Of a DNA stretch of 64,000 bases, positions 20,281 to 63,866 are shown piece after piece. The notes beneath the pieces are model-generated. The model ran no database searches. It was not told the DNA's origin and saw nothing but the letters and a program-made list of their open reading frames with translations. Source of the DNA: Mesostigma viride (lineage: Eukaryota > Streptophyta > Mesostigmatophyceae > Mesostigmatales > Mesostigmataceae); NCBI GenBank assembly GCA_009746045.1, contig RPFO01000595.1, positions 489,501-553,500 on the forward strand. The letters are read 5' to 3'. Each line of letters begins with the position of its first letter. Within the stretch, counting starts at the first letter, position 1. The position numbers and the translations under genes were made by a program.

Positions 20281-42131
<21,851 letters not shown>

Positions 42132-46009: not shown

Positions 46010-46280
46010 ATGACGCGAAGTATGGATATGGAGCGTAGTAACAAGATAGTTTTCCTTTCCTGTGTTTGTTTACTGCTATTTTTGCGTGGAAACCTTTTCG
46101 CGCAAGCGCAGCTAACCGAGGCGGACTGTCAGAGCACGGACGATGCACTGACGGCGAGGATAGTTCGCGCTGTCACGCCCCTTCCCATTTGTCGGTTCGG
46201 AACATTTGAATGGGACAGCGAATTGTGTCCCTCGCCAGACTGCAAGTTAAAGATTGGAAACTGCACGGACCCATGCGATT
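46010..46280 (+). CDS. Array exon 1: signal peptide plus first half-domain
   Basis: The Met at 46010 starts MTRSMDMERSNKIVFLSCVC. The hydrophobic core is residues 13-25, with likely cleavage after FAQA (near residue 33). The Mets at residues 5 and 7 and an upstream in-frame Met at 45944 are alternatives; the upstream one would bury the signal peptide. The mature part is only the C-terminal half found in other exons (LTEADCQSTDD…CRFGTFEWDSELCPSPDCK…CTDPCDC). Donor GTACGT. Confidence 0.8.
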
Positions 46281-49200
46281 GTACGTATACTTCCATGAGT
46301 GGAATCGTTATGCCCGTTTGTGTGCTCGTTGTTATACCCTCCCAGTTGCCGCCTCCTGGGTGACCTTTTGCTGTACTTACCTTGCCTCGTTGAACTCGAT
46401 GATGCTGTCAACTTACGTGCATCATCTGCCTGATTGGAACCGCTAACCTTGTTTTGGGCGCCCCTCATACGAACTCGACACCTATAAAGTATTTTCTCGT
46501 CTCTGAGCACGGCATCCCCGTCAATTATTTGCCCCGCGCTCCCACTCGTCCCCTCCGCGCTACGCCCGCGCAGGTATCGCGGAGCAGGTCCGCGTGGCGG
46601 CGCAAGACGTCACGCAGCTGCGAAACTTATTCCAGTGCGGCAGGGACACCATCGGGGGCTGCCCTTTGTCCAAGATCGTCGAATATGGCCCCATGTGCAA
46701 TATCACCCAACTCTTCGAAGACGTGTTTCGAGCCGTGGGGGTGCCCTTCCCGCCCCCCCGCGCGCCCCCCCCTCCTCCACGCGTCAGCACACCACCCCTG
46801 ACGACACAGGAGTGTGACGAGATCGATCAGACGCTGACATCGACCATCGTCAGGGCCGTCGCCCCGCTCCCCATCTGCACCAACGGTCGCTACTCATGGG
46901 ATGATAATCTGTGCCCGGCCGAGGACTGCAAGTTTGAGACGGGGAGCTGCCTGGCCCCCTGCCCCTGTAAGTTAACGCCCTTCAGTTAATGGCCAAGTGA
47001 AGGCCTAGAGTTAAAAGTTATCACTGCAAGGTTTGAGACGGGGAGCTGCCTGGGACCCTCCCCCCTGTACAGTGTTTCTGCTAAGGGGTGGGGGGGTTCC
47101 GGTAACTCCGGTAAGGGGGGGGGTCCGGCCGAGGCCGCGAAGCGGCCGAGGCCGGGGGGGGGTCCGGGGGGGCGGAGCCCCCCCGGATGTTGGCGAATTT
47201 TTTTTAGAAAAATAAAAACCCAATAGGATTTCTTATACAGTTATATAATTTATCCTAAACTGTGAAGCCTTGCCTTAGTGGGCTGCTTGTGCCCTGAATC
47301 CTGATTCACATAGCCTTGGCATACGCAGGGCTCCCTAATAAAACATACGAAAATGATAACTTAGCATGCATACAAGCATGCCTAGTCACAATAGGAGGTT
47401 ACAAAACATAGTTGTCATCACTTGTAGGCTATGTAGCTCACATTAGCTCACCCATACATTATTGGCGTGACCTCACACGATGCCGCCTTAGGGTTTGCAT
47501 GCACCATATACACCCATAGGCCGGTGTCGAAACAACCTGCTCCGACATGGCCTGCTCCGGAACATCACCGCCATGAATTTCGCGCTGTGGGTGCGCTGAG
47601 CCACCTGCATCGCCCTGCTCTACGGCACCCTCATCCCCATTCGTCTTATCAGTGTCGTCCCCTTCTAACTCGTTGCCTGCCTGCGCCTGGTGTGTAACGA
47701 CCGTGCCCAAAGCCCGGCGACCGCTCGTACTGCCAGCCAAGGTCAAACTGAAACGCCACCACCTCGTGTGAAATGGTCCTTGAACTTGTAGCCCAGGGGA
47801 ATCGGGGGCTCTTTCTTCTTCGTCATGATTCACTTCTCTAGCGCACTATCGAAAAATGTAGGATTAGAAAACACGCAAAACAAAGTCAGCTGCATGGCTC
47901 GATTGCCGTGAACTTCATGCATCGTCTAGCGGCTCAGCACCTTTACATCGTGTTGCGTACCTACTGCTGCAGGCATTCTGCAGCGCATTTGTTACCCGCC
48001 GCACTAAACTGACTGGAATTGCCGGCTGCCAAGTGCTGAGTGCTGACCCATTCGTTATAGGGTCAGATCTGCACCGCGCCACGCCTTTTGTTACTTGGGT
48101 ACGGATAATCTATTTGCTCACAAATTGAAGTTGAAACTTTAGCCCCTCCTCGATCAACAGTAGTTGTTAGCACGTCCAATAACTCAACTCAACTCAACAT
48201 CAACAACAACGAGATTTGTGCTGGTCAAGCTCACACCGGTAATAAAAGTGGGCAACAACAACGACAACCCGAGCGAGCGAGCAATGTTTGTGCAAATTCG
48301 CCTAGCCTTGACGAGCCGTTGCCCATGATTATTTTTTTAATACTGCATCTGAGGGTCACGCACTACTATTTTAACCTCATCAGTAAGGTATCTTGTACTG
48401 TAGCTACGATAGGACCGTCGCGAGATTCCATGCCCTGGCGCACTGGTTTTCGTCGGGCATTCAGCAGGGCTCCGTCTGCTGTGTCGGAATTTACATTCGG
48501 TGGAGGTGTTAGCATGGCAGCAAAGTGCAAACTATTTGTAAGTGCCGGGAATAGTAACATATAGTAATCGAAGTTGATATTTTGTAATAGTCAGTATATA
48601 AGTACCGGGTTTGTGTGACGGGGAAACCGGGGAACCCCGGCCGGCATTATTTGCTTCTCGGTCGACCAGGTCAGCCCGGGGATGGCTTACCGGTCGGCCG
48701 GGGGGGTTTCCTGCTCTGAACACAGCATACCGGTCGGTCGGGGGGGTTTCCTGCTTGACATATAGCATACCGGTCGGCCGGGGGGGGTTTCCTGCTTGGC
48801 ATATAGCATACCGGTCGGCCGGGGGGGGCTTACCGGTCGGCCGGGGGGGCACCGGTAATTACCGGAGAATTACCGGTACCGGTGCGTTAGCAGAAACACT
48901 GCCCCTGTAAGTGAAGGGTGTCAAGTGAAATGGCTCTGAAGTCAGAGTTAAGTTAAAGCTTACTCAAGGTTAGCAAGTTGAGGTCATGATCGAGGCCTTC
49001 CAGTTAAAGCTTCCAGGAAAGGCTTCCAGGCAAAACTTCCAGGTAAATCTTATGAGTGTTGCCTTCCTCCCTTCCACAGCTTCCAACGGGGGCTTCTTAC
49101 AGCGTCATCCGGTAACACTCCGAGAAATCTGAAAAAAATCTGGTAGATATAGCGCGGGTGAGTCAGCCATAGCAAGGACCTCGGCTCGATGGGCCAAACC

Positions 49201-52200
49201 CAGCGGTAGTTGACCATGGTTTCAAGATGACATTCACATACACATGCACACACACACCCATGTGCTCTGTCTTACATGCACATGCACTACTACACGCACT
49301 ACACTACTACATGCACATGCACTGCTACTACACGTACTACACTATTACATGCACATGCACTACTGTGAAGTCTACACGCATACCCACTACCAAGTGTGCA
49401 TGCGCCCACGCACCCCACCCCTCACCCAGGCATCTCGGAGCAAGGCTCTCACACACAGGCTGTCTCTCTGCCACTCCCACCCACCTCCCCTCCCCCGAAT
49501 ATCCTATCGCCCCCTCCCTCTCCCTCCCCCTCCCCCCCGCCCCCCTCCTCTCCCACCCCACCCCATAAGCATGCAACAGGCAGGGGGTTGCTTTGCAAAG
49601 CCACCCCCAACCCCACGGGCAGGCATCAGAGTGCAGATCCCTCACGCACACACGCTGACTCTCTCTCTCTCTCTGTTTCTGCCCCCATATCCCCCCACAC
49701 ATGTACCACCACCTCTTTCCTCTCCTCCCCCCCCCCACACACACGCACGCAGGCATCACGGAACAAGTCCGCGTCGCCTCTACGGAGAAGACTGCGCTCC
49801 GCCAGCTGTACGAGTGCGGGCGGGACGCCATCGGTGGCTGCCCCTTGTCCAAGTTCTTCGAGTACGCGCCCCAGTGTGGGTTCACCCAGCTTCTGAACGA
49901 CCTCCTCGTCGAGCTCGGCGTCCCCTTCCCTCCACCGTCCCCTCGCACGGGCCCCGCGCCGCCCCTGTCCCCGCCCCCCCCGCCGGGGCGGGCGAGCCCA
50001 CCGCCGCCCCCCTCCCCCCCCCCTGCTCTTCTCACAGCGGAGGAGTGTGCGGCGCTGGATGACGTGGTGACGGTGGAAATTGTGCGTGCGATCGCGCCGC
50101 TGACGGCGTGCATCTACGGCCAGTTTGACTGGAATCCGGACACACTCTGCCCGGCCGACACATGCAGGAACATGACGGGGCAGTGCAGGAACCCCTGTCC
50201 TTGTGAGTGAATAGAAATAAGGTGAAGGGATTAGCAATAACGTGGGTCAGCAGCTGCAGGAAACCCTGTCCTTGTGAGTGAATAGAAATAAGGCGAAGGG
50301 ATTAGCAATAACGTGGGTCAGCAGCTGCAGGAACCCGTGCCCTTTGTGAGTGCGGCGTCATACGAAGCTGTGTAGTGTTTTTGCTGTCGTGGTTTCCAGT
50401 GACGCTTGCCGTTGTGAATGCGACCGTGTGGCCTGCTGCAATTTCGGTTTGTGGTTTGTGGTAGTCGACAATCCATCTCAAACATGCAAACCTGTATCTG
50501 TACTACCGCTTACGCTAGGATCTGTTTTTAATGCAAAGCTGATAAGGCTGTCACGCGCGACGGTGCCGCCACAGGTTGGTGTCGAGGTTTGAGGGTTTTG
50601 CTAGCTAAACTTACATCTTTTGCCCCTTAAAGCACTTATTACTCCACATGCGCTGTACAGTGTTGAAGTGTTGTACAGGTCCCCACCCCACCCCCGATCA
50701 GCAAGCCTTGAGGAGCAGCAGAAGGACCCTTTGCTGCGGTTATTGAATTGACCAATGTATTGAAGTTGGCGGCTCGGCCCATCAGGCCACCACCGTCCAT
50801 CAGGCATTGAGGAGCAGCGACACAAACAAGCATTGCCACTTTCACTGTATAACGATGTATGGAATTGCCCCAATTATCATCATTACTATGATTGTCTGCA
50901 TGGCCCCTTCCATGCAGGCATCGAGGAGCAAATCAACCAAGCAGCCCTGCAGTCCTCCGATCTGCGCCGGCTCTACCAGTGCGGCCGCGACTCCATCGGC
51001 GGCTGCCCCATCGCCAGAATTGTGGACTACAGTCCCATGTGCGGGCTCCAGGCCAAGTTGAACAGCCTCTTCCTCTCCGTTGGTGTTCCATTCCCGCCAC
51101 CCGCGTCGGCGTCCACGGGGCCGTCTCCCCCTCCTGGGATCCTGCGCCCACCGCCGCCGTCACCCCCCCTCCGGGTGCTGACACCGGAGGAGTGCGAGGA
51201 GCTGGACGATCGACTCACGGTCTATCTAGTCATCGGGCTATCCCCGCTCGCAGTCTGCCAGTTTGGCGAGTTTGAGTGGGACACCCAGCTGTGCCCTGTT
51301 GCGGACTGCAAGCTGGGCATTAACAACTGCAGGAACCCCTGCCCTTGTGAGTGAATACTTAGCTTTACTATCTTACTAATATATGTTGTAATTATTTAGC
51401 CATGATGTGGGTCAACAGCTGCCGGAACCCCTGCCCTTGTGAGTTCTGGTAGTATCTGATTAACCTAGAATTTCTTATTGGTAGTATCTGATTAACCACT
51501 AAAACGCCTGCCTTCTGGGTTCAATGCAGAGAGCGTGTTCTGTGTCCTGCCCTCTCGTTCATGCGAGAAGCTGCGGTGCCTTACCCCCTCCTCGTTGCGT
51601 ACGAGAGACTGAATCTACCCTGTGCGACCAGCTGCTAACACGATCTATGCATGTTCAACTAACCTAATTTAACCTCCTTAGATGGTTGTCACAATCCCCT
51701 TACATAGAGGAGTCAATGCAATTCAATCCCCTTACATACAATACGTCCACGCTTATCCTTTCCTCGCGTTGTTGCATCGCCACCTGGCACCTGCCTTTGC
51801 CCAGGCCTCCGCGAGCAGGTCGCCTTCGCGTCCCAAAACGTGACCGAGCTGAAGCAGCTCTTTGCCTGTGGGCGTAACACCATCGGGGGCTGCCCCATCA
51901 GCCGCATCGTCGACTATGGCGCGCAGTGCAACCTCACCACCCAGATTAACAACTTGTTCACGGCCGTGGGGGTGCCAATACCCCCTCCCCGATCTGCCGC
52001 CCCTCCACCGCCACCCAGCCCGCCATCACCGCCACCGAGGGGGGTATTAACGGAACAGGACTGCGAAATCTTAGACGATGCCATGACGCTCTATCTGGTC
52101 AGGACCCTGTCTGCTTTGGGGATCTGCCAGTTTGGGCAGTTTGAATGGGACGACCGGCTGTGCCCGGTAGCAGACTGCAAGCTGCAGGTCAACAACTGCC

Positions 52201-55200
52201 GAAGCCCCTGCCCATGTGAGTGAAGGCTAGTCCGTATTTATGCTAGAGCTCATATGAGCCCATGTGAGTGAACAGGCTTCTTAGAACTGCCAAATCCTGA
52301 CCCTTGCCAAAGCATGCAAGTACTACTACCTTAACTAATCAGCAACCTTGTGGCTCAACAACTGGGGGAACCGCTGCCTATGTGAGGAAATACAAGGTCC
52401 ACCAGTACTAGCTAAATAGCAATCATGTGGCTCAGCAGCTGTAGAAAACATTGCCTGAGAATGTCTATTGCCACTAACTAATTAGCAGTTGTGTGGGATA
52501 GCCGCAGTGTGTGAGTGAACGGACCTAGTATCAACTCGCCCTTACAAAGAGAGAAATCACTGCAACATAAACTTCTGAGGGCAAACGTCCCTTTGCGAGT
52601 GCTGTCGTTTACTTTCCCTACCCCGCCTTATCTGCCTCACTTGCCTAGTTAATTAAGGTTGGGTGGCGCTGGGCTTTTTTTAGAGTCTGTATACTGTGAG
52701 CAACCTTGTCCGCGACCCCCTTGTCCCTCCTGCTTGTCCCCCGCTCCACAATAATCATCCTGCTGCGTGCGCCCTGTGATGCCGCCCGCTGCTTGCCACC
52801 CTCCAGGCCTCCGCGAGCAGGTCAACCTTGTATCTCGCAACGTCACCGAGCTGAGGCAGCTGTTTTCCTGCGGGCGCACCGAGGTTGCCGGGTGCCCGAT
52901 CGGCAACATCGTTGATTACGCCACGCAGTGCAACTTCACCACTGAAATAAACAACCTGTTTGGCGCCGTGGGAGTGCCGCTGCCCCCTCCTCGCCCTCCA
53001 TCCCCACCACCCCCACGGCCACCGCCTCCAAGCCCACCCCCACCCCCAAGCCCACGACCCCCACCTCCTAGCCCACGACCTCCACCACCCCCGCCTGTAC
53101 GCCCACCCCCACCACCGCCTACAAGCATCAGCCCCCCCCCCCCCCCCCCCAAGCACCAGCCCACCCCCTCCCCCGCCTACAAACACCAGCCCCCCCCCCC
53201 CCCCCCCCACCCCCACCGCCGCTTACAAGCACCAGCCCACCATCGCCACCACCTACTAGCCCCAGCCCGCACCCCCCTCCTCCATCACCACCGCCACCGC
53301 CAAGGGGGTCTTTGTCAGAGATAGAATGCGATGACCTGGACGACGCACTGGCTCTCTCTGTGGTCCGCTCGCTGTCCCCCCTGCCCATCTGCATCTTTGG
53401 CGAGTTTGAGTGGGACGACCGCCTCTGCCCTGTGGCCGACTGCAAGCGGGGAGTCAACAACTGCCGGAACCCCTGCCCATGTGAGTGTGGTCTGGTGTGA
53501 TAGAAGATGGAGTTAGGCATGGAAAAAAATAGCTGGGGATGTGTAATTGTTTGATTGCTTACTGGTTGAGGGAGGTGGTTAAGGCAGTGTGTGTGTGTGT
53601 GTCTGTGCGTGTGTGTGTGACATCGTATAGCCACTAAAAGCGGTCATGAAACTAAGGTGGTTAGATTTCTGGCTACTGAATGGAACGGCGTGCTGGAAAT
53701 CAGACCGTTTCGGTCATCTTAGCAGGGTATAATGACAGACCACCCAAATGAAGAAAACGGAGCCGTGCCGGTTCCAACCTTGGTTGGGTGGGGTAGCAGA
53801 AGGCTTTTGTCACTACAACGTGCCAGACGATGCCAACTCCTCCTCAGTCACAGGCTTTATTTTATTTATCTAGGGTAACACATCGCCCTTGTGTTTTTGC
53901 GCTTTTGTCCCTGGTCTGACTGGTTATGCGCTGGTGAAGGGCGATATTCAAAGGCCACAAAACTTGTCGAGAATGTACTGGAGCATGCTACCAAGACATG
54001 TAAACACTTTTGTGTACAAAACCTCTGGGAGTGGAGATAACCAAGTCTTTACTTTGGCATTTGAAGATCCTAAAATCACACGGATACGGAAAAATTTAAT
54101 ACCTACATATGTTTAGTATAAAAATATCTCAACATGCTTACCTGTGCAGGATGCTTACTTACAACGATGATGCTCCGTCTCTGAAACCCCATGATGTCAC
54201 CTCACTGCAACCTCGTCTGGCTACCCCCAGGCCTCCGCGAGCAGGTCACCGTCGTGTCTCGCAATGTGACCGCGCTTCGGCAGCTCTTCGCCTGCGGGCG
54301 CAACTCCATTGCCGGATGCCCTGTCGCAAACATTGTGGACTATGGCGTGCAGTGCAACATGACCACGCAGATCAACAACTTGCTTACGGCGGTGGGCGTG
54401 CCGCTGCCGCCTCCCCAATCGGCCGCCCCTCCACCGCCACCGAGCCCGCCATCACCGCCACCAAGGGGGGCACTGTCTGAGCAAGAGTGCGATGACCTGG
54501 ACGATGCCTTGTCCCTCACTTTGGCTCGCGCGCTCTCCCCTCTGCCCATCTGCCAGTTTGGGCAGTTTGAGTGGGACGATCGGCTGTGCCCGGTGGCGGA
54601 CTGCAAACAAAGCGTCAACAACTGCAGGAACCCCTGCCCATGTGAGTGACTGCTCGTCCGTATTCATGCTTGAACTGATGTTGCCAGGTCATTTTCTAGC
54701 GCTAACGCAAGTCGAGGTAAGGAATCTAATGCAAGTGAAAAGGAAGCTAGGAAGGATGGGGGCTGTTGCTGCCATCCGTCCACTGCCAGCTCAGAATAGC
54801 GACTAATATCTATTAGTCCACCCTCTTTCTTTTCCCCGTACATTACTTTTCTCTTGACAGGCATCGAGGAGCAAGTGCGACAAGCTTCCTTCAACGTCAC
54901 CGCGCTTCGGCAGCTCTTCGCCTGCGGGCGCAACACCGTCGCCGGCTGCCCCGTTGGAAACATCGTGGAATACGCCGCACAGTGCAACTTCACGACAAGG
55001 GTCAACAACCTGTTTGCTGCCGTGGGGGTGCCCTTGCCCCCCCCTCAGTCAGGCACCCGAGCACCCCCACCCCCACCCCCACCTACAAGCACCAGCCCAC
55101 GCCCTCCTCCCCCTCCTCCATCACCACCGCCGCCGCCAAGGGGGCCCTTATCGGAGCAAGAATGCGATGACCTGGATGGCGCTTTGGCACTGTCCATAGT

Positions 55201-58200
55201 CCGGTCCCTGTCTCCATTGGCAGCGTGTGCGTTTGGCGAGTTCAACTGGGACAACCAGCTGTGCCCGGTGGCCGACTGCAAGCGGGGCATCAACAACTGC
55301 AGGAACCCCTGCCCATGTGAGTTTAAGTTTTATCTGGTTAAGGAAGAGTTTCTTGCTGAAAAAGTGTCTGCTATGCATGTAAATTTGTTGCAAAAATTTT
55401 GAAAGTGTCTCGTTATTGTCTGTATTTACTTCGGGAAAATGAGGCTTGCGCAACCTCAAGGAGACGGATAGCTGACCACTTGGATATGTTTGTTAGCTTT
55501 GGTCTTTGTCAATGAAAGAGCAGCCTCAACAACAGGATGCATTTCCGTGAACTCACAAAGTGATAGAACTAAGTCATACTCTGTTTACTCTTTTTTGTTG
55601 ATGTATGTTTGCTATGGCCTTTGTTTTTCTGCCTGGCCCTGTCCCTTTCTGGGTCTTTGCCCTCCCCCAGGCCTACGCGAGCAGGTCAACGTTGTCTCTG
55701 GCAACGTCACCCAGCTCAGGCAGCTATTCGCCTGCGGGCGCAACACCATCGCGGGATGCCCCATCGCCAACATCGTTGACTATGCCGCGCAGTGCAACTT
55801 CACGACCCAGATCAACAACTTGTTTGTTGCCGCGGGCGTGCCGCTGCCGCCTCCCCAATCCGCTGCCAGGCCGCCACCGCCACCAAGCCCGCCATCACCG
55901 CCACCAATGGGGTCCATGTCGGAGCAGCAGTGCGATGACCTAGACGATGCCCTGACGCTGAGCCTGGCTCGCGCGCTCTCCCCTCTGTCAATCTGCCAGT
56001 TTGGCCAGTTTGAGTGGGACGATCGGCTGTGCCCGGTGGCCGACTGCAAACAAAGCATCAACAACTGCAGGAACCCCTGCCCGTGTGAGTGACTAACTGC
56101 ACTCATTTGCATATTTCTCTGCTTCCAATTTTGAGTCGCAAAATTGTCAGAGGCCTGTTGTTTGCGTCTGCCACCGCTCTCGTGACAGGCATCGAGGAGC
56201 AAGTGACCCTTACAGGGGTCTTTCTTTTTATTGCGTGTGTAATCGTTCTTTATTACAGGCATTGAGGAGCAAGTGCGACAAGCTTCCTTCAATGTTACCG
56301 CGCTTCGCCAGCTATTCGCCTGCGGGCGCAACACCATTGGGAGCTGCCCGGTCGCCAGCGTTGTGGAATACGCCGCACAGTGCAACTTCACGACAAGGGT
56401 GAACAACCTGTTTGCTGCCGTGGGGGTGCCCCTGCCACCGCCTCAAGCAGCCACCCCACCGCCCCCTACAGCTGTGTCGCCACCTGCAAACACCAGCCCA
56501 CCATCGCCACCACCTTCAGGCACCAGCCCGCGCCCTCCTTCCCCCCTTCCATCACCACCGCCACCACCGAGGGGGTCTTTGTCGGAGACAGAATGCGATG
56601 ACCTGGACGACGCGCTGGCTCTCTCTGTAGTCCGCTCGCTGTCCCCCCTGCCCATCTGCATCTTTGGCGAGTTTGAGTGGGACGACCGCCTCTGCCCGGT
56701 GGCCGACTGCAAGCGGGGAGTCAACAACTGCCGGAACCCCTGCCCATGTGAGTGTGGTCTGGTGTGATAGAAGAGGGAGTTACGCATGGAAACAAATAGC
56801 TGGGGATGTTTATTTAGATTGACTTGATAGATTTTCGATTGCTGACTGATATAGGGAGCAAAAATCCTTTGTCTTTATATTTCATAACCACTTTTCATAA
56901 CCGCTATAAGTGGTTACAAAAATATACTAGTAAGTGGTCATATTTTTCATATCGGCTGGAACTTGACAAAGTCTTGGAAATCAACCGTTTTGAAGCAGTT
57001 ATCTTGGCAGGGATGTAATTACAGACCACCCAAATGAAGAAAAATGTTCCAACCTTCGTTGGGTGGAGTTGCAGAAGGCTTTTGTCTCTGTGACTTGCTG
57101 GACGATACCAAACGCCTTAGCCGTTGTTGTCTCAAGGGGGGGGGGCGGGGGGGGGGGGGGAAGTTTCCCTATGGTGACTTCATTTTTCTACTCTAGGCCT
57201 TATTCATGGTTGTACACTTTTCCATTCCAAACTTTATTTTTCTAGGGTAAGCTATGACCCATGGGGTAGTACGCTATGACCTATGGCTCGTGCGTTATTG
57301 TGTTTCGTTCCTGGCTGGATTGGTTTTGTGCCTGTGAACGCCGACATCCACCGGCTGCTAACTTTGCGGAGTAAAATGCAACTACTGGCATTCTAACAGG
57401 ACGATTGACCACTCCAATGTGCGAAGCCTCCTGTGGGGGTAAAGCATCCATATCTTGACTTGGGCATGTGCATGACCCGCCCTTCACAAGGAAACGACAT
57501 GATGTGATACTTATGTCGTATGATAACTATAAATATACCGTAGCATGCTGACCAACATAGCATGCTGACAACCTATAACGATGGTTTCTCGTTTCTCGAA
57601 CCCCATCATGCCACCTGTCACCTGTTGTACCTGTCTGCAACCTCGTCTGGCTACCCCCAGGCCTCCGCGAGCAGGTCACCGTCGTGTCTCGCAATGTGAC
57701 CGCGCTTCGGCAGCTCTTCGCCTGCGGGCGCAACTCCATTGCCGGATGCCCTGTCGCAAACATTGTGGACTATGGCGTGCAGTGCAACATGACCACGCAG
57801 ATCAACAACTTGTTTACGGCGGTGGGCGTGCCGCTGCCGCCTCCCCAGACCGCTGCCCCACCACCGCTACCAAGCCCGCCATCACCGCCACCAAGGGGGG
57901 CACTGTCTGAGCAAGAGTGCGATGACCTGGACGATGCCTTGTCCCTCACTTTGGCTCGCGCGCTCTCCCCTCTGCCCATCTGCCAGTTTGGGCAGTTTGA
58001 GTGGGACGATCGGCTGTGCCCGGTGGCCGACTGCAAACAAAGCATCAACAACTGCAGGAACCCCTGCCCATGTGAGTGACTGCTCGTCCGTATTCATGCT
58101 TGAACTGATGTTGCCAGGTTATTTACTAGCGCTAACGCACGGTTAGGTAAGGAATCTAATGCAAGTGAAAAGGAAGCGAGGAAAGATGGGGGCTGTTGCT

Positions 58201-61200
58201 GCCATCCGTCCACTGCCAGCTCAGAATAGCGACTAATATCTATTAGTCCACCCTCTTTCTTTTTCCCGTACATGACTTTTCTCTTGACAGGCATCGAGGA
58301 GCAAGTGCGACAAGCGTCCTTCAACGTCACCGCGCTTCGGCAGCTCTTCGCCTGCGGGCGCAACACCGTCGCCGGCTGCCCCGTTGGAAACATCGTGGAG
58401 TACGCCGCACAGTGCAACTTCACGACAAGGGTCAACAACCTGTTTGCTGCCGTGGGGGTGCCCTTGCCCCCCCCTCAGTCAGGCACCCGAGCACCCCCAC
58501 CCCCGCCCCCACCTACAAGCACCAGCCCACGCCCTCCTCCCCCTCCTCCATCACCGCCACCACCACCAAGGGGGCCCTTATCGGAGCAAGAATGCGATGA
58601 CCTGGATGGCGCTTTGGCACTGTCCATAGTCCGGTCCCTGTCTCCATTGGCAGCGTGTGCGTTTGGCGAGTTCAACTGGGACAACCAGCTTTGCCCGGTG
58701 GCCGACTGCAAGCGGGGCATCAACAACTGCAGGAACCCCTGCCCATGTGAGTTTAAGTTTTATCTGGTTAAGGAAGAGTTTCTTGTTGAAAAAGTGTCTG
58801 CTATGCATGTAATTTTGTTGCAAAGATTTTGAAAGCGTCTTGTTATTGTCTGTATTATCTTCGAGAGAATGAGGCTTGCGCGATTTCAAGGAGACGGATA
58901 GCTGACCACTTGGATATGTTTGTTAGCTTTGGACTTCGTCCATGAAAGAGCAGCCTCAACAACGGGATGCATTGCCGTGAACTCACACAGTGATAGAACT
59001 AAGTCATACTCTGTGTACTCTTTTTTGTTGATGTATGTTTGCTATGGCCTTTTTTTTTTGCCTGGCCCTGTCCTTTTCTGGGCCGTGCCCTCCCCCAGGC
59101 CTACGCGAGCAGGTCAACGTTGTCTCCGGCAACGTCACCCAGCTCAGGCAGCTATTCGCCTGCGGGCGCAACACCATCGCAGGCTGCCCCATCGCCAACA
59201 TCGTTGACTATGCCGCGCAGTGCAACTTCACGACCCAGATCAACAACTTGTTTGCTGCCGTGGGCGTGCCGCTGCCGCCTCCCCAATCCGCTGCCAGGCC
59301 GCCACCGCCACCAAGCCCGCCATCACCGCCACCAATGGGGTCCATGTCGGAGCAGCAGTGCGATGACCTGGACGATGCCCTGACGCTGAGCCTGGCTCGC
59401 GCGCTCTCCCCTCTGTCAATCTGCCAGTTTGGCCAGTTTGAGTGGGACGATCGGCTGTGCCCGGTGGCCGACTGCAAACAAAGCATCAACAACTGCAGGA
59501 ACCCCTGCCCGTGTGAGTGACTAACTGCACTCATTTGCATATTTCTCTGCTTCCAATTTTGAGTCGCAAAATTGTCAGAGGCCTGTTGTTTGCGTCTGCC
59601 ACCGCTCTCGTGACAGGCATCGAGGAGCAAGTGACCCTTACAGGGGTCTTTCTTTTTATTGCGTGTGTAATCGTTCTTTATTACAGGCATTGAGGAGCAA
59701 GTGCGACAAGCTTCCTTCAATGTTACCGCGCTTCGCCAGCTATTCGCCTGCGGGCGCAACACCATTGGGAGCTGCCCGGTCGCCAGCATTGTGGAATACG
59801 CCGCACAGTGCAACTTCACGACAAGGGTGAACAACCTGTTTGCTGCCGTGGGGGTGCCCCTGCCACCCCCTCAAGCAGCCACCCCACCGCCCCCGACAGC
59901 TGTGTCGCCGCCTGCAAACACCAGCCCACCATCGCCACCACCTTCAGGCACCAGCCCGCGCCCTCCTTCCCCCCCTCCATCACCACCACCACCACCACCG
60001 AGGGGGTCTTTGTCGGAGACAGAATGTGATGACCTGGACGACGCGCTGGCTCTCTCTGTGGTCCGCTCGCTGTCCCCCCTGCCCATCTGCATCTTTGGCG
60101 AGTTTGAGTGGGACGACCGCCTCTGCCCGGTGGCCGACTGCAAGCGGGGGATCAACAACTGCCGGAACCCCTGCCCATGTGAGTGTGGTCTGGTGTGATA
60201 GAAGAGGGAGTTGCATGGAAACAAATAGCTGGGGATGTTTATTTAGATTGGCTTGATAGATTTTCGATTGCTGACTGATATAGGGAGCAAAAATCCTTTG
60301 TCTTTATATTTCATAACCACTTTTCATAACCGCTATAAGTGGTTACAAAAATATACTAGTAAGTGGTCATATTTTTCATATCGGGTGGAACTTGACAAAG
60401 TCTTGGAAATCAACCGTTTTGAAGCAGTTATCTTGGCAGGGATGTAATTACAGACCACCCAAATGAAGAAAAATGTTCCAACCTTCGTTGGGTGGAGTAG
60501 CAGAAGGCTTTTGTCTCTGTGACTTGCTGGACGATACCAAACACCTTAGCCGTTGTTGTCTCAAGGGGGGGGGGGGGGGGGGGGGGGGAAGTTTCCCTAT
60601 GGTGACTTCATTTTTCTACTCTAGGCCTTATTCATGGTTGTACACTTTTCCATTCCAAACTTTATTTTTCTAGGGTAAGCTATGACCCATGGGGTAGTAC
60701 GCTATGACCTATGGCTCGTGGGTTATTGTGTTTCGTTCCTGGCTGGATTGGTTTTGTGCCTGTGAACGCCGGCATCCACCGGCTGCTAACTTTGCGGAGT
60801 AAAATGCAACTACTGGCATTCTAACAGGACGATTGACCACTCCAATGTGCGAAGCCTCCTGTGGGGGTAAAGCATCCATATCTTGACTTGGGCATGTGCA
60901 TGACCCGCCCTTCACAAGGAAACGACATGATGTGATACTTATGTCGTATGATAACTATAAATATACCGTAGCATGCTGACCAACATAGCATGCTGACAAC
61001 CTATAACGATGGTTTCTCGTTTCTCGAACCCCATCATGCCACCTGTCACCTGTTGTACCTGTCTGCAACCTCGTCTGGCTACCCCCAGGCCTCCGCGAGC
61101 AGGTCACCGTCGTGTCTCGCAATGTGACCGCGCTTCGGCAGCTCTTCGCCTGCGGGCGCAACTCCATTGCCGGATGCCCTGTCGCAAACATTGTGGACTA

Positions 61201-63866
61201 TGGCGTGCAGTGCAACATGACCACGCAGATCAACAACTTGTTTACGGCGGTGGGCGTGCCGCTGCCGCCTCCCCAATCGGCCGCCCCTCCACCGCCACCG
61301 AGCCCGCCATCACCGCCACCAAGGGGGGCACTGTCTGAGCAAGAGTGCGATGACCTGGACGATGCCTTGTCCCTCACTTTGGCTCGCGCGCTCTCCCCTC
61401 TGCCCATCTGCCAGTTTGGGCAGTTTGAGTGGGACGATCGGCTGTGCCCGGTGGCGGACTGCAAACAAAGCGTCAACAACTGCAGGAACCCCTGCCCATG
61501 TGAGTGACTGCTCGTCCGTATTCATGCTTGAACTGATGTTGCCAGGTCATTTCTAGCGCTAACGCAAGTCCAGGTAAGGAATCTAATGCAAGTGAAAAGG
61601 AAGCAAGGAAGGATGGGGGCTGTTGCTGCCATCTGCCCACTGCCGGCCCAGATCAGCGACTGATATGCACCCTCTTTCTTTTTCCCGTACATTACTTTTC
61701 TCTTGACAGGCATCGAGGAGCAAGTGCGACAAGCTTCCTTCAACGTCACCGCGCTTCGGCAGCTCTTCGCCTGCGGGCGCAACACCGTCGCCGGCTGCCC
61801 CGTTGGAAACATCGTGGAGTACGCCGCACAGTGCAACTTCACGACAAGGGTCAACAACCTGTTTGCTGCCGTGGGGGTGCCCTTGCCCCCCCCTCAGTCA
61901 GGCACCCGAGCACCCCCACCCCCGCCCCCACCTACAAGCACCAGCCCACGCCCTCCTCCCCCTCCTCCATCACCACCGCCGCCGCCAAGGGGGCCCTTAT
62001 CGGAGCAAGAATGCGATGACCTGGATGGCGCTTTGGCACTGTCCATAGTCCGGTCCCTGTCTCCATTGGCAGCGTGTGCGTTTGGCGAGTTCAACTGGGA
62101 CAACCAGCTGTGCCCGGTGGCCGACTGCAAGCGGGGCATCAACAACTGCAGGAACCCCTGCCCATGTGAGTTTAAGTTTTATCTGGTTAAGGAAGAGTTT
62201 CTTGTTGAAAAAGTGTCTGCTATGCATGTAATTTTGTTGCAAAGATTTTGAAAGTGTCTCGTTATTGTCTGTATTTACTTCGGGAAAATGAGGCTTGCGC
62301 GATTTCAAGGAGACGGATAGCTGACCACTTGGATATGTTTATTAGCTTTGGTCTTTGTCAATGAAAGAGCAGCCTCAACAACAGGATGCATTGCCGTGAA
62401 CTCACAAAGTGATAAAACAAAGTCATACTCTGTTTACTCTTTTTTGTTGATGTATGTTTGATATGGCCTTTTTTTTTGGCCTGGCCCTGTCCTTTTCTGG
62501 GCCGTGCCCTCCCCCAGGCCTACGCGAGCAGGTCAACGTTGTCTCTGGCAACGTCACCCAGCTCAGGCAGCTATTCGCCTGCGGACGCAACACCATCGCA
62601 GGCTGCCCCATCGCCAACATCGTTGACTATGCCGCGCAGTGTAACTTCACGACCCAGATCAACAACTTGTTTGCTGCCGTGGGCGTGCCGCTGCCGCCTC
62701 CCCAATCCGCTGCCAGGCCGCCACCGCCACCAAGCCCGCCATCTCCGCCACCAATGGGGGGCATGTCGGAGCAGCAGTGCGATGACCTGGACGATGCCCT
62801 GACGCTGAGCCTGGCTCGCGCGCTCTCCCCTCTGCCCATCTGCCAGTTTGGCCAGTTTGAGTGGGACGATCGGCTGTGCCCGGTGGCGGACTGCAAACAA
62901 AGCATCAACAACTGCAGGAACCCCTGCCCATGTGAGTGACTAGTTGCATTTTTCTGTGTAGTAGTATTTTCTGCTTCCAAATTTGAGTAGCAAGCTCATG
63001 AGACCTGTGATTTGCTTTCGCCACTGTTCTCGTGACAAGCATTGAGGAGCAAGTGACCCGTACAGTGATCCTTTCTTGTTTTGTGTATGTGAAAGTTCTT
63101 TATGCCAGGCCTCAAGGAGCAAGTGCGCCTGGCTGTGCCCTGATGAACATATTGCTGTTGTTGCCTATGTGCTTGCCCTTACTCTCTATTCTGGCAGGCA
63201 TCGAGGAGCAAGTGCGACAAGCTTCCTTCAACGTGAGCGCACTTCGCCAGCTATTCGCCTGCGGGCGCAACACCATTGGGAGCTGCCCGGTTGCCAGCGT
63301 TGTGGAATACGCCGCGCAGTGCAACTTCACGACAAGGGTGAACAACCTGTTTGCTGCCGTTGGGGTGCCCCTGCCACCCCCTCAGGCAGCCACCCTACCG
63401 CCTCCTACAACCGTGTCGCCGCCACCACCATCACCTACACCTTCACCGCCACCATCGTCTTCACCACCGCCACCATCATCCTCACCTCCGCCACGATCGC
63501 CGCCACCTTCACCACCACCACCCGTCCAAAACTCGCCACCTCCCTCGCCATCACCACCACCACCCGCAAGATCCCCTCCACCATCCCCTCGACCCCCTCC
63601 ATCCTCACCACCCCCAGCAGCATCTGGAGGTACCGGCGACCCCCCGGTCGATCCGAAGTCGCCCCCACCCCAGCCAGCATCACCGCCACCCCCACCCCTG
63701 ACGGAGCAACAATGTGAGGACCTCGATGACGCTCTTGTAGTCTCCCTCGTGCGAGCGCTGTCCCCACTCCCAATCTGCATCTATGGCGAGTTTGACTGGG
63801 ACAGTCGACTCTGCCCCGTGGCGGACTGCAAGCAAGGCATCAACAACTGCAGGAACCCCTGCCCAT
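46010..63866 (+). CDS. Secreted Cys-rich/Pro-rich modular protein, at least 18 exons (gene span, partial 3')
   Basis: Exons: 46010-46280, 46574-46966, 49753-50202, 50918-51346, 51805-52215, 52807-53480, 54231-54641, 54861-55316, 55671-56084, 56259-56747, 57661-58071, 58291-58746, 59099-59512, 59687-60178, 61089-61499, 61710-62165, 62518-62931, 63198-63866. All introns are phase 1: each splits one Cys codon (T|GC, T|GT). Exon 1 has a signal peptide and then half a domain (C..DD…C…CP..DCK…C..PC.C). Each later exon supplies the other half (EQV…LRQLFACGR…GCP…QCN), a spacer of PPSPPPP type, and the first half of the next domain. Repeated NVT/NFT/NMT sequons suggest N-glycosylation. Location is probably extracellular matrix or cell wall (inference). 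I do not recognise the domain family. The gene continues beyond the window. Confidence 0.85.
46574..46966 (+). CDS. Array exon 2
   Basis: 131 codons, phase 1-1. AEQVRVAAQDVTQLRNLFQC, short PPP-rich spacer, then TTQECDEIDQTLTSTIVRAV and the Cys end. Donor GTAAGT. The following intron holds an exon-end echo and a hAT-like insertion. Confidence 0.85.
47033..47061 (+). other. Echo of the end of array exon 2
   Basis: GGTTTGAGACGGGGAGCTGC repeats the exon 2 end (46930-46950 region) inside intron 2. The donor part of the echo, CCCCTGTAAGT, is split by the hAT-like element and resumes at 48902. Confidence 0.8.
47070..48901. mobile_element. hAT-like DNA transposon (1,832 bp) in intron 2
   Basis: Terminal inverted repeats CAGTGTTTCTGCTAA (15 bp, perfect) at 47070-47084 and 48887-48901, flanked by an exact 8-bp duplication CCCCTGTA (47062-47069, 48902-48909). 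Subterminal regions carry CCGGTAA and ACCGGTCGGCCGGGGGG repeats. A minus-strand frame starting MTKKKEPPIPLGYKFKDHF is soon closed and no transposase domain is seen, so it is probably non-autonomous. It shares CAGTGTTT ends with the element at 7356-10533. Confidence 0.88.
48690..48855 (+). repeat. Subterminal repeats of the second hAT-like element
   Basis: Four copies of ATACCGGTCGGCCGGGGGG with TTTCCTGCTTGACATATAGC between them. They are possible transposase-binding sites by position. Confidence 0.8.
49753..50202 (+). CDS. Array exon 3
   Basis: 150 codons, phase 1-1. TEQVRVASTEKTALRQLYEC…, a spacer with SPRTGPAPPLSPPPPP, then LTAEECAALDDVVTVEIVRA. It diverges most from the 3' exons, as exon 2 does. 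Donor GTGAGT, followed in the intron by two donor echoes. Confidence 0.85.
50249..50353 (+). other. Two donor echoes after array exon 3
   Basis: CAGCTGCAGGAAACCCTGTC and CAGCTGCAGGAACCCGTGCC, each followed by TTGTGAGTG, repeat the exon 3 end (CRNPCPC coding) and its donor. They are spaced by a 72-73-bp tandem unit that includes AATAGAAATAAGG. Confidence 0.85.
50918..51346 (+). CDS. Array exon 4
   Basis: 143 codons, phase 1-1. IEEQINQAALQSSDLRRLYQ…, a spacer with PPPASASTGPSPPPGILRPP, then LTPEECEELDDRLTVYLVIG. A donor echo (CAACAGCTGCCGGAACCCCT, GCCCTTGTGAGT) follows at about 51410-51443. Confidence 0.88.
51805..52215 (+). CDS. Array exon 5
   Basis: 137 codons, phase 1-1. LREQVAFASQNVTELKQLFA…, compact APPPPPSPPSPPPRG spacer, then LTEQDCEILDDAMTLYLVRT. 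First exon of the LREQV type with the short spacer. Decayed donor echoes occur at about 52258, 52360 and 52435. Confidence 0.88.
52807..53480 (+). CDS. Array exon 6 (frameshift in poly-C spacer)
   Basis: LREQVNLVSRNVTELRQLFS…, then a very long Pro-rich spacer, then LSEIECDDLDDALALSVVRS. The length of 674 is not a multiple of three. The frame must shift inside the poly-C runs (53132-53150 or 53194-53210), by real mutation or by a sequencing/assembly slip. The 5' half resembles the exon 7/9 type, the 3' half the exon 10/14 type (CKRGVNNCR, then CECGLV in the read-through). Confidence 0.75.
54231..54641 (+). CDS. Array exon 7 (block copy 1, position A)
   Basis: 137 codons, phase 1-1. LREQVTVVSRNVTALRQLFA…TTQINNLLTAVGV, APPPPPSPPSPPPRG spacer, then LSEQECDDLDDALSLTLARA. 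Near-identical to exons 11 and 15. Confidence 0.92.
54861..55316 (+). CDS. Array exon 8 (block copy 1, position B)
   Basis: 152 codons, phase 1-1. IEEQVRQASFNVTALRQLFA…, a spacer with TSTSPRPPPPPPSPPPPPRG, then LSEQECDDLDGALALSIVRS…FNWDNQLCPVADC. Near-identical to exons 12 and 16. Confidence 0.92.
55671..56084 (+). CDS. Array exon 9 (block copy 1, position C)
   Basis: 138 codons, phase 1-1. LREQVNVVSGNVTQLRQLFA…NNLFVAAGV (VAA where exons 13 and 17 have AAV), ARPPPPPSPPSPPPMG spacer, then MSEQQCDDLDDALTLSLARA. Confidence 0.92.
56189..56210 (+). other. Acceptor echo before array exon 10
   Basis: GTGACAG|GCATCGAGGAGCAAGTGACC duplicates the acceptor and first codons (IEEQV) of the real exon start 70 bp downstream, then departs. 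An equivalent sits at 59617 before exon 14. Confidence 0.85.
56259..56747 (+). CDS. Array exon 10 (block copy 1, position D)
   Basis: 163 codons, phase 1-1. IEEQVRQASFNVTALRQLFA…GSCPVASVVEY, a spacer with AVSPPANTSPPSPPPSGTSP, then LSETECDDLDDALALSVVRS. Near-identical to exon 14. Confidence 0.92.
56748..57660 (+). other. Intron 10 (913 bp) with poly-G run
   Basis: Almost identical to intron 14 (60179-61088) and a diverged relative of intron 6 (53481-54230). It contains a G-run at 57136-57161 and no exon. Confidence 0.8.
57661..58071 (+). CDS. Array exon 11 (block copy 2, position A)
   Basis: 137 codons, phase 1-1. Like exon 7, but NNLFTAVGV and spacer TAAPPPLPSPPSPPP, and CKQSINNCR instead of CKQSVNNCR. 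Confidence 0.92.
58291..58746 (+). CDS. Array exon 12 (block copy 2, position B)
   Basis: 152 codons, phase 1-1, same protein as exon 8 as far as I can see. Differences are synonymous (for example CCGCCACCACCACCA in the spacer). Confidence 0.92.
59099..59512 (+). CDS. Array exon 13 (block copy 2, position C)
   Basis: 138 codons, phase 1-1, the exon 9 type with NNLFAAVGV. Confidence 0.92.
59687..60178 (+). CDS. Array exon 14 (block copy 2, position D)
   Basis: 164 codons, phase 1-1, the exon 10 type with one extra Pro codon in the spacer, GSCPVASIVEY and CKRGINNCR. An acceptor echo lies at 59617. Confidence 0.92.
61089..61499 (+). CDS. Array exon 15 (block copy 3, position A)
   Basis: 137 codons, phase 1-1. 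The first half matches exon 11 (NNLFTAVGV); the spacer and second half match exon 7 (SAAPPPPPSP, CKQSVNNCR). A recombinant by inspection. Confidence 0.92.
61710..62165 (+). CDS. Array exon 16 (block copy 3, position B)
   Basis: 152 codons, phase 1-1, the exon 8/12 type. The intron before it lacks about 11 bp present in copies 1 and 2 (near 61655-61670). Confidence 0.92.
62518..62931 (+). CDS. Array exon 17 (block copy 3, position C)
   Basis: 138 codons, phase 1-1, the exon 9/13 type, with MGGMSEQQCDDL and ALSPLPICQF where the other copies have MGSMSEQ and ALSPLSICQF. Confidence 0.92.
63036..63130 (+). other. Two acceptor echoes before array exon 18
   Basis: At 63036-63060 the sequence CAAGCATTGAGGAGCAAGTG has lost the CAG (now CAA). 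At 63106-63128 CAGGCCTCAAGGAGCAAGTG keeps it, but its frame (CLKEQVRLAVP) stops at once. The second mixes the LREQV and IEEQV types. The true acceptor is at 63195-63197. Confidence 0.85.
63198..63866 (+). CDS. Array exon 18 (last in window, long spacer)
   Basis: 223 codons, phase 1-1. IEEQVRQASFNVSALRQLFA…GSCPVASVVEY, then an exceptionally long spacer (SPPPPSPTPSPPPSSSPPPP, later ASGGTGDPPVDPKSPPP), then LTEQQCEDLDDALVVSLVRA…FDWDSRLCPVADC. It ends in a GTGAGT donor, so the gene continues. A donor echo lies at about 63940-63980. Confidence 0.9.

Follow-up and report, generated by a model that had tools for sequence, protein, structure and literature searches.

Does an intron that recurs at the same codon throughout an extracellular protein separate its domains, or does it cut each of them in two? 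The question is posed by gene 1 of the scaled streptophyte alga Mesostigma viride, which lies in a 64,000-nucleotide stretch of genomic DNA (the window, to which positions refer unless a contig is named). In the window, gene 1 runs from 46010 to 63866 on the + strand and has 18 exons with 17 introns between them. Below, A is the half-domain that ends an exon, B is the half-domain that opens the next one, and a slash marks an exon border.

Exon 1, 46010..46280, + strand: signal-peptide-like start, A half of domain 1; ends T/GTACGT; identical in gene model P0001
Exon 2, 46574..46966, + strand: B half, Pro spacer, A half; in P0001
Exon 3, 49753..50202, + strand: B, spacer, A; in P0001
Exon 4, 50918..51346, + strand: B, spacer, A; P0001 continues into the intron to Cys-Glu-stop
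Exon 5, 51805..52215, + strand: B, spacer, A
Exon 6, 52807..53480, + strand: B, spacer, A; length 674 bp, the two halves out of frame with each other
Exon 7, 54231..54641, + strand: B, spacer, A; opens the repeated four-exon block
Exon 8, 54861..55316, + strand: B, spacer, A
Exon 9, 55671..56084, + strand: B, spacer, A
Exon 10, 56259..56747, + strand: B, spacer, A
Exon 11, 57661..58071, + strand: copy of exon 7
Exon 12, 58291..58746, + strand: copy of exon 8
Exon 13, 59099..59512, + strand: copy of exon 9
Exon 14, 59687..60178, + strand: copy of exon 10
Exon 15, 61089..61499, + strand: copy of exons 7 and 11
Exon 16, 61710..62165, + strand: copy of exons 8 and 12
Exon 17, 62518..62931, + strand: copy of exons 9 and 13
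Exon 18, 63198..63866, + strand: B half like that of exon 10, a long spacer and a diverged A half, then a donor
Tandem array, 54192..63127, + strand: about 2.6 copies of a 3.43-kb block comprising four exons plus introns

All 17 introns start with GT and end with AG, all 17 are phase 1, and each splits one identical cysteine codon, to which the upstream exon contributes T and the downstream exon GC or GT, always giving Cys. At every junction in the window the donor reads T/GTGAG, T/GTAAG or T/GTACG and the acceptor AG/GC or AG/GT. After exon 1, the order within each exon is B half, Pro-rich spacer, A half; all 17 later exons in the window carry such a spacer, and secretion of the product is a prediction. 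Exon 1, which reads MTRSMDMERSNKIVFLSCVCLLLFLRGNLFAQAQ, has a start that resembles a signal peptide by eye, followed by an A half alone. An initial annotation of this DNA had claimed 17 phase-1 introns splitting the same Cys codon, and our reading of all junctions bore this out. It had also counted 16 of the 17 exons after the first as divisible by three in length, which is correct, the exception being exon 6 (674 bp), and its description of exon 1 as a signal peptide plus the closing half-domain agrees with the A half and the signal-peptide-like start seen there. A pattern for exon starts occurred 19 times in the window, compared with a mean of 0.09 in shuffled sequences; 15 occurrences were real exon starts and 4 were intronic, and the starts of exons 10 and 14 were missed.

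The introns also hold extra copies of exon ends, about 70-330 bases from the real borders: an A-half end with a donor at 50273 and 51438, and an acceptor with a B-half start at 49427, 56186, 59614 and 63106. Use of the copy near 56186 would break the frame. Short tandem repeats with ACCGGTCGGCCGGGGGGG-type units lie in intron 2 (48690-48860).

Protein database searches, in part within length limits or among the candidates listed, gave one match only, the gene model jgi/Mesvir1/22897/Mv26593-RA.2 (P0001), in whose name we take Mesvir1 to stand for Mesostigma viride. This model is an annotation rather than a transcript; it is 100% identical to gene 1 over exons 1-4, shares junctions 1-2, 2-3 and 3-4, and ends where donor 4 is read through into TGT GAG TGA (Cys-Glu-stop). 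The same TGT GAG TGA appears on read-through at the donors of exons 3, 4, 5, 7, 9, 11, 13, 15, 17 and 18. Because read-through restores the split Cys and then adds Glu and a stop, retention of an intron would terminate the product shortly after an A half. Gene 1 itself continues beyond the window, to a total of 20 exons over C1923:535510-556605, and is followed in tandem by a second gene of the same kind:

Exon 19, C1923:554180-554679: beyond the window; frame shift in the spacer
Exon 20 (last), C1923:555872-556605: B half, spacer, whole uncut A-B domain, tail, stop
Gene 2, C1923:566.4-582.7 kb: in tandem with gene 1; terminus in the style of gene 1

The tail of exon 20, VDNSAPASAISGVFTLYLALMGAALAFLL, ends before the stop in a hydrophobic run and looks GPI-anchor-like by eye. 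Of the 20 exons, 18 are open with intact borders. The halves of exon 6 lie out of frame, so the assembled reading frame of gene 1 breaks there; two 19-base C runs (53132 and 53190) separate these differently framed halves. In exon 19 the frame changes within a spacer that holds a 12-base C run. Assemblies often err at long C runs, and the two frame shifts may be homopolymer assembly errors or real.

Part of the array is of recent origin. A self-comparison matched 54192-59705 to 57623-63127 at 96.4%, and exons 7-10, 11-14 and 15-17 belong to the 3.43-kb block, with exons about 98% identical between copies. Since exons 7-17 are recent block copies, the 17 introns of gene 1 are not 17 independent events. 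Blocks 1 and 2 are 98.1% identical in exons (1736/1770 compared bases) and 97.5% in introns, and blocks 2 and 3 are 98.0% identical in exons and 90.4% in introns. Exon 6 appears to be a mosaic drawn from two types of exon: its B half is of one type, its A half and the following intron match exon 10 (76.7% over 701 columns), and this match begins inside the Pro-rich spacer, which makes exchange likely inside Pro-rich spacers as well as in introns. The earlier proposal that whole exons can be added or lost describes only one of two routes, the other being a switch within a spacer, as exon 6 suggests.

The same domain recurs widely in this genome. A module search of the window's own 439.9 Mb assembly gave at least 132 matches and a search with a divergent relative at least 66, and the two together fell on 30 contigs. 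The domain is split in five genes (gene 1, gene 2 on C1923, and genes on C1757, C1215 and C1480), which range from six domains to about twenty. A T/GT donor follows all 33 split-type A halves that we read for it, 31 of them in the four other genes and 2 in exons 18-19 of gene 1. Each of the five begins with A, alternates strictly between A and B and ends with B; for genes 2-5 this order was read from hits of at least 40 bits, which dropped the terminal domains and a 12-bit A scrap on C1480.

In most of the other matches the domain is uncut. Among the 66 divergent-relative matches, 46 span at least 100 of the 121 residues within a single open frame, and 20 are shorter. One locus (L019, C2023) has nine whole domains in a 1672-residue open frame, and another (L024, C1) encodes in a single frame a start, a signal-like N-terminus, two whole domains, an extended SPPP region and a hydrophobic tail. 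In these relatives A runs directly into B, and the spacers lie outside the domain. For the CQFP type (C1468 among others), a candidate phase-1 donor (G/GT or A/GT) is found 3-5 codons past the whole domain. By eye, such donor candidates follow the whole domain in 23 of the 25 listed rows, the other two being of other types, and in three of the five regions inspected upstream of whole-domain exons a phase-1 acceptor precedes the Pro stretch. The profile used for this listing and for the tree below includes a few half-exon rows read into introns.

Two loci have a more unusual structure. On C1480 (L018 near 9261 and L035 near 440), about 7.5 kb of sequence separates CC from GC in the terminal domain of gene 5; the interruption adjoins the codon of the split-gene intron, has a few repeated bases at both ends and is possibly a transposon insertion. 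At 697-3387 of L027 (C1435), a different Cys-rich region occurs in four copies, with Pro spacers, ahead of one family domain in a single open frame of 897 residues, the one case of joining to another region.

We aligned 87 domains, 48 split ones that were rejoined and 39 whole ones. The cysteine encoded by the split codon is present in all 87, including all 39 uncut domains. Exactly ten cysteines are found in 84 domains (47/48 split, 37/39 whole); seven cysteine columns are common to 85-87 of the 87, and the remaining three are filled in 76, 72 and 50. Gaps are absent from the nine columns up to and including the split Cys and do not exceed 5% in those that follow, and one insertion column, 12 positions past the split Cys, is filled in 35/87 domains. 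In a tree, the 48 split domains group together to the exclusion of all 39 whole ones, with a support of 0.955, and the uncut domains that terminate genes 1 and 2 are the neighbours of the split group. The tree was built from fetched loci, skipping identical sequences and rows of fewer than 96 profile positions and dropping two partial rows (one from C1468, one from C1801); its 48 split domains include near-identical copies, and its 39 whole ones are those of the fetched loci rather than of all matches. As the split domains form a single group, the simplest reading is one intron gain in the ancestor of that group followed by copying, and one gain with subsequent tandem expansion is likely on these sequences. 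At 5 of 9 positions, domains of gene 2 and gene 3 are each other's sisters, in matching order.

The domain resembles no known family in the libraries covered. A Pfam scan of 3 modules and 19 diverse members gave nothing above cut-off, the best weak hits being to unrelated families (E 0.017, 0.14 and 0.26); a PDB sequence search gave no relative of the ten-cysteine domain; and no relative was found in the viral and prokaryotic contigs searched. Within Pfam and PDB, the family is thus undescribed, as the initial annotation had supposed, and the profile search that it had recommended, pherophorin included, gave no match above cut-off for 19 members. Titles and abstracts in the literature, with few subscription papers covered, likewise contained nothing on a ten-cysteine domain family of this kind. 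Because protein searches also missed the relatives in this very genome, they are weak evidence of absence from other species, and the family may extend beyond Mesostigma. Two candidates were rejected: pherophorin, for which Pfam presumably holds a model, by the absence of any match above cut-off (3 modules, 19 members), and the eight-cysteine domain of plant nsLTPs by the ten cysteines in 84/87 domains together with the absence of a Pfam match above cut-off.

The unit joined across the intron, A plus B, is most likely the domain, because A-B is uncut in the relatives, the split genes read ABAB...AB, the junction is poor in gaps and ten cysteines are found in 84/87 domains. The initial annotation had proposed this cross-intron unit, and the uncut relatives, the A-start and B-end of the genes, the alignment and the ten cysteines support it. 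Alternatively, A and B could be separate small disulphide domains that alternate, with the intron in a linker and nothing bisected. The halves contain six and four cysteines, respectively, both even, so that cysteine parity does not exclude two subdomains, and in the weak AlphaFold2 models the B halves are of higher confidence than most of the A halves, B being helical in the model of exon 9. However, the junction is nearly gap-free across 87 domains while spacers between B and A vary from about 25 to 119 residues, A is directly followed by B in uncut relatives, and a non-exhaustive search recognised no A-alone copy, with the 12-bit scrap on C1480 and partial matches as its loose ends; we consider separate domains unlikely. 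Structure prediction, by which the earlier reading could have been overturned had the exon folded as a unit, gave weak models and no clear answer (mean pLDDT 59.5 for exon 9 and 51.2 for P0001, with few input sequences, and the packing of the halves not shown), and a Foldseek search with the low-confidence exon-9 model gave no match. That the exon itself (B-spacer-A) folds as the unit is very improbable. An exon also contains ten cysteines, and distances of same-exon B and A halves do correlate, at 0.59 in gene 1 when repeated copies are removed and 0.76 when they are kept, and at 0.36 in gene 3. The cross-intron pair gives 0.85 and 0.88 in gene 1, 0.14 in gene 3, and 0.60 in gene 5, where the same-exon value is -0.04; neither pairing is favoured in genes 2 and 4, and the pooled values (0.755 versus 0.748) do not differ. 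Against the exon stand the orphan A at the start and the orphan B at the end of all five genes, the A-B order of uncut relatives with their spacers outside, and a spacer length that is free to vary within the exon.

The remaining explanations concern the gene as a whole. The locus could be a decaying array that makes a short N-terminal protein only, the remainder being repeat-driven copying without coding selection. The frame shifts in exons 6 and 19, the annotated model that stops after exon 4, and an exon identity between blocks 1 and 2 about equal to that of the introns would all fit decay. Yet 18/20 exons are open with intact borders, both shifts fall in spacers with C runs of 12-19 bases that are prone to assembly error, the introns of blocks 2 and 3 diverge more than their exons, and the domains of genes 2 and 3 are sisters in the same order at five of nine positions; decay is, in our judgement, a rather poor prospect. 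That gene 1 encodes a conventional green-algal or plant pherophorin or extensin seems barely credible: SPPP spacers between globular Cys-rich parts recall such proteins, but 0/19 family members scored above the Pfam cut-off.

Gene 1, in the reading that we prefer, is probably a 20-exon gene for a secreted, likely GPI-anchored protein of about 20 domains with Pro-rich spacers, whose introns cut the same Cys codon. An ancestral uncut domain would have gained one phase-1 intron in the cysteine of its CxC motif, and tandem copies would then have arisen by unequal crossing-over of spacer-to-spacer units (A-intron-B) or of whole exons. Because both routes add a multiple of three bases and an intact domain, the array can lengthen with frame and fold kept. 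The product would be a long, beaded, glycosylated, disulphide-rich molecule of the cell surface with hydroxyproline-type spacers.

Where on the surface might it reside? To our knowledge, the sugars of the scales in the Mesostigma coat have been described and its proteins have not. The initial annotation had inferred a cell-wall protein, which does not fit, for the alga has a cover of basket scales and lacks a wall (PMC6947507; scales without a wall also in PMC10762512); 'cell-wall' should hence be read as 'predicted surface-coat'. Keto-sugar acids are a component of the scales, and what covers the alga in its non-motile phase is described as unknown (PMC10762512). By eye, genes 1 and 2 and L024 each end in a GPI-like hydrophobic tail after small residues, which suggests a membrane-anchored coat protein. 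In 2392 residues from 16 exons of gene 1, with exons 1, 6 and 19 left out of the count, the spacers contain 31 SPPP, 12 SPPPP and 30 N-x-S/T motifs. N-glycosylation, secretion and a GPI anchor are predicted for the gene 1 protein, and a product of about 20 domains would fit a coat or scale-layer protein, most likely in the coat under or between the scales.

Extensin-type proteins consist in bulk of SPPP and SPPPP motifs. Gene 1 shares these motifs, and has the repeated S-P3 or longer motifs by which extensins and other HRGPs are recognised, but in gene 1 they form spacers between Cys-rich domains rather than the bulk. Volvocine pherophorins and other chimeric HRGPs are like gene 1 in their globular Cys-containing parts, hydroxyproline-type Pro-rich rods, large families and, as predicted for gene 1, secretion (compare PMC10762512). 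Gene 1 differs from pherophorins in having no Pfam domain above cut-off and many tandem domains, and in belonging to a scaled streptophyte alga. The nearest precedent that we found for such an interlocked array is the LRR family of Tetrahymena, whose genes likewise have tandem exons divisible by three, a single intron phase, a codon shared across each intron and growth by ectopic recombination (PMC6564038). Those genes have phase-2 introns, fixed 90-bp exons and an LRR fold (PMC6564038), whereas gene 1 has phase-1 introns, exons of at least 393 bp after the first, a ten-Cys domain and Pro spacers.

Like the predicted product of gene 1, animal class 1-1 modules are secreted and Cys-rich, with phase-1 introns and symmetric exons, and a review asks why such exon shuffling is restricted to Metazoa (Patthy 2021, PMC8001218). 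In animals the phase-1 introns lie on either side of a class 1-1 module (PMC8001218), whereas those of the five Mesostigma genes cut the module. The flanking introns of exons in the split genes are both phase 1, as in class 1-1 modules, and the exon borders are not domain borders. In whole-domain exons, the candidate donors just past the domain suggest that exon and domain borders do coincide. Tentatively, and at somewhat less than an even chance, we propose that Mesostigma evolved a private modular matrix toolkit independently of animals, in which a ten-cysteine domain on phase-1 exons, spread over at least 30 contigs, makes up beaded, GPI-anchored proteins of the coat, and that in one branch a single in-domain intron made the array self-registering, so that it could grow by unequal crossing-over with frame and fold unbroken. 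One genome holds the domain in its uncut form as well as five genes in which it is cut, an internally controlled case in which an intron within the domain, not at its edge, can accompany tandem growth of an extracellular protein. The account of symmetric phase-1 modules, usually an animal story, extends here to a unicellular streptophyte, and the split-domain genes become candidate sources of the proteins in the Mesostigma coat.

Two further features lie elsewhere in the window. A 2885-codon open frame on the - strand (20284-28938), rich in Gly, Ala and acidic residues and in short repeats and with no Pfam match, might not be a gene but a GC-rich open frame. At 1973-2626, also on the - strand, there is a reverse-transcriptase fragment (Pfam RVT_1, E 2.4e-11).
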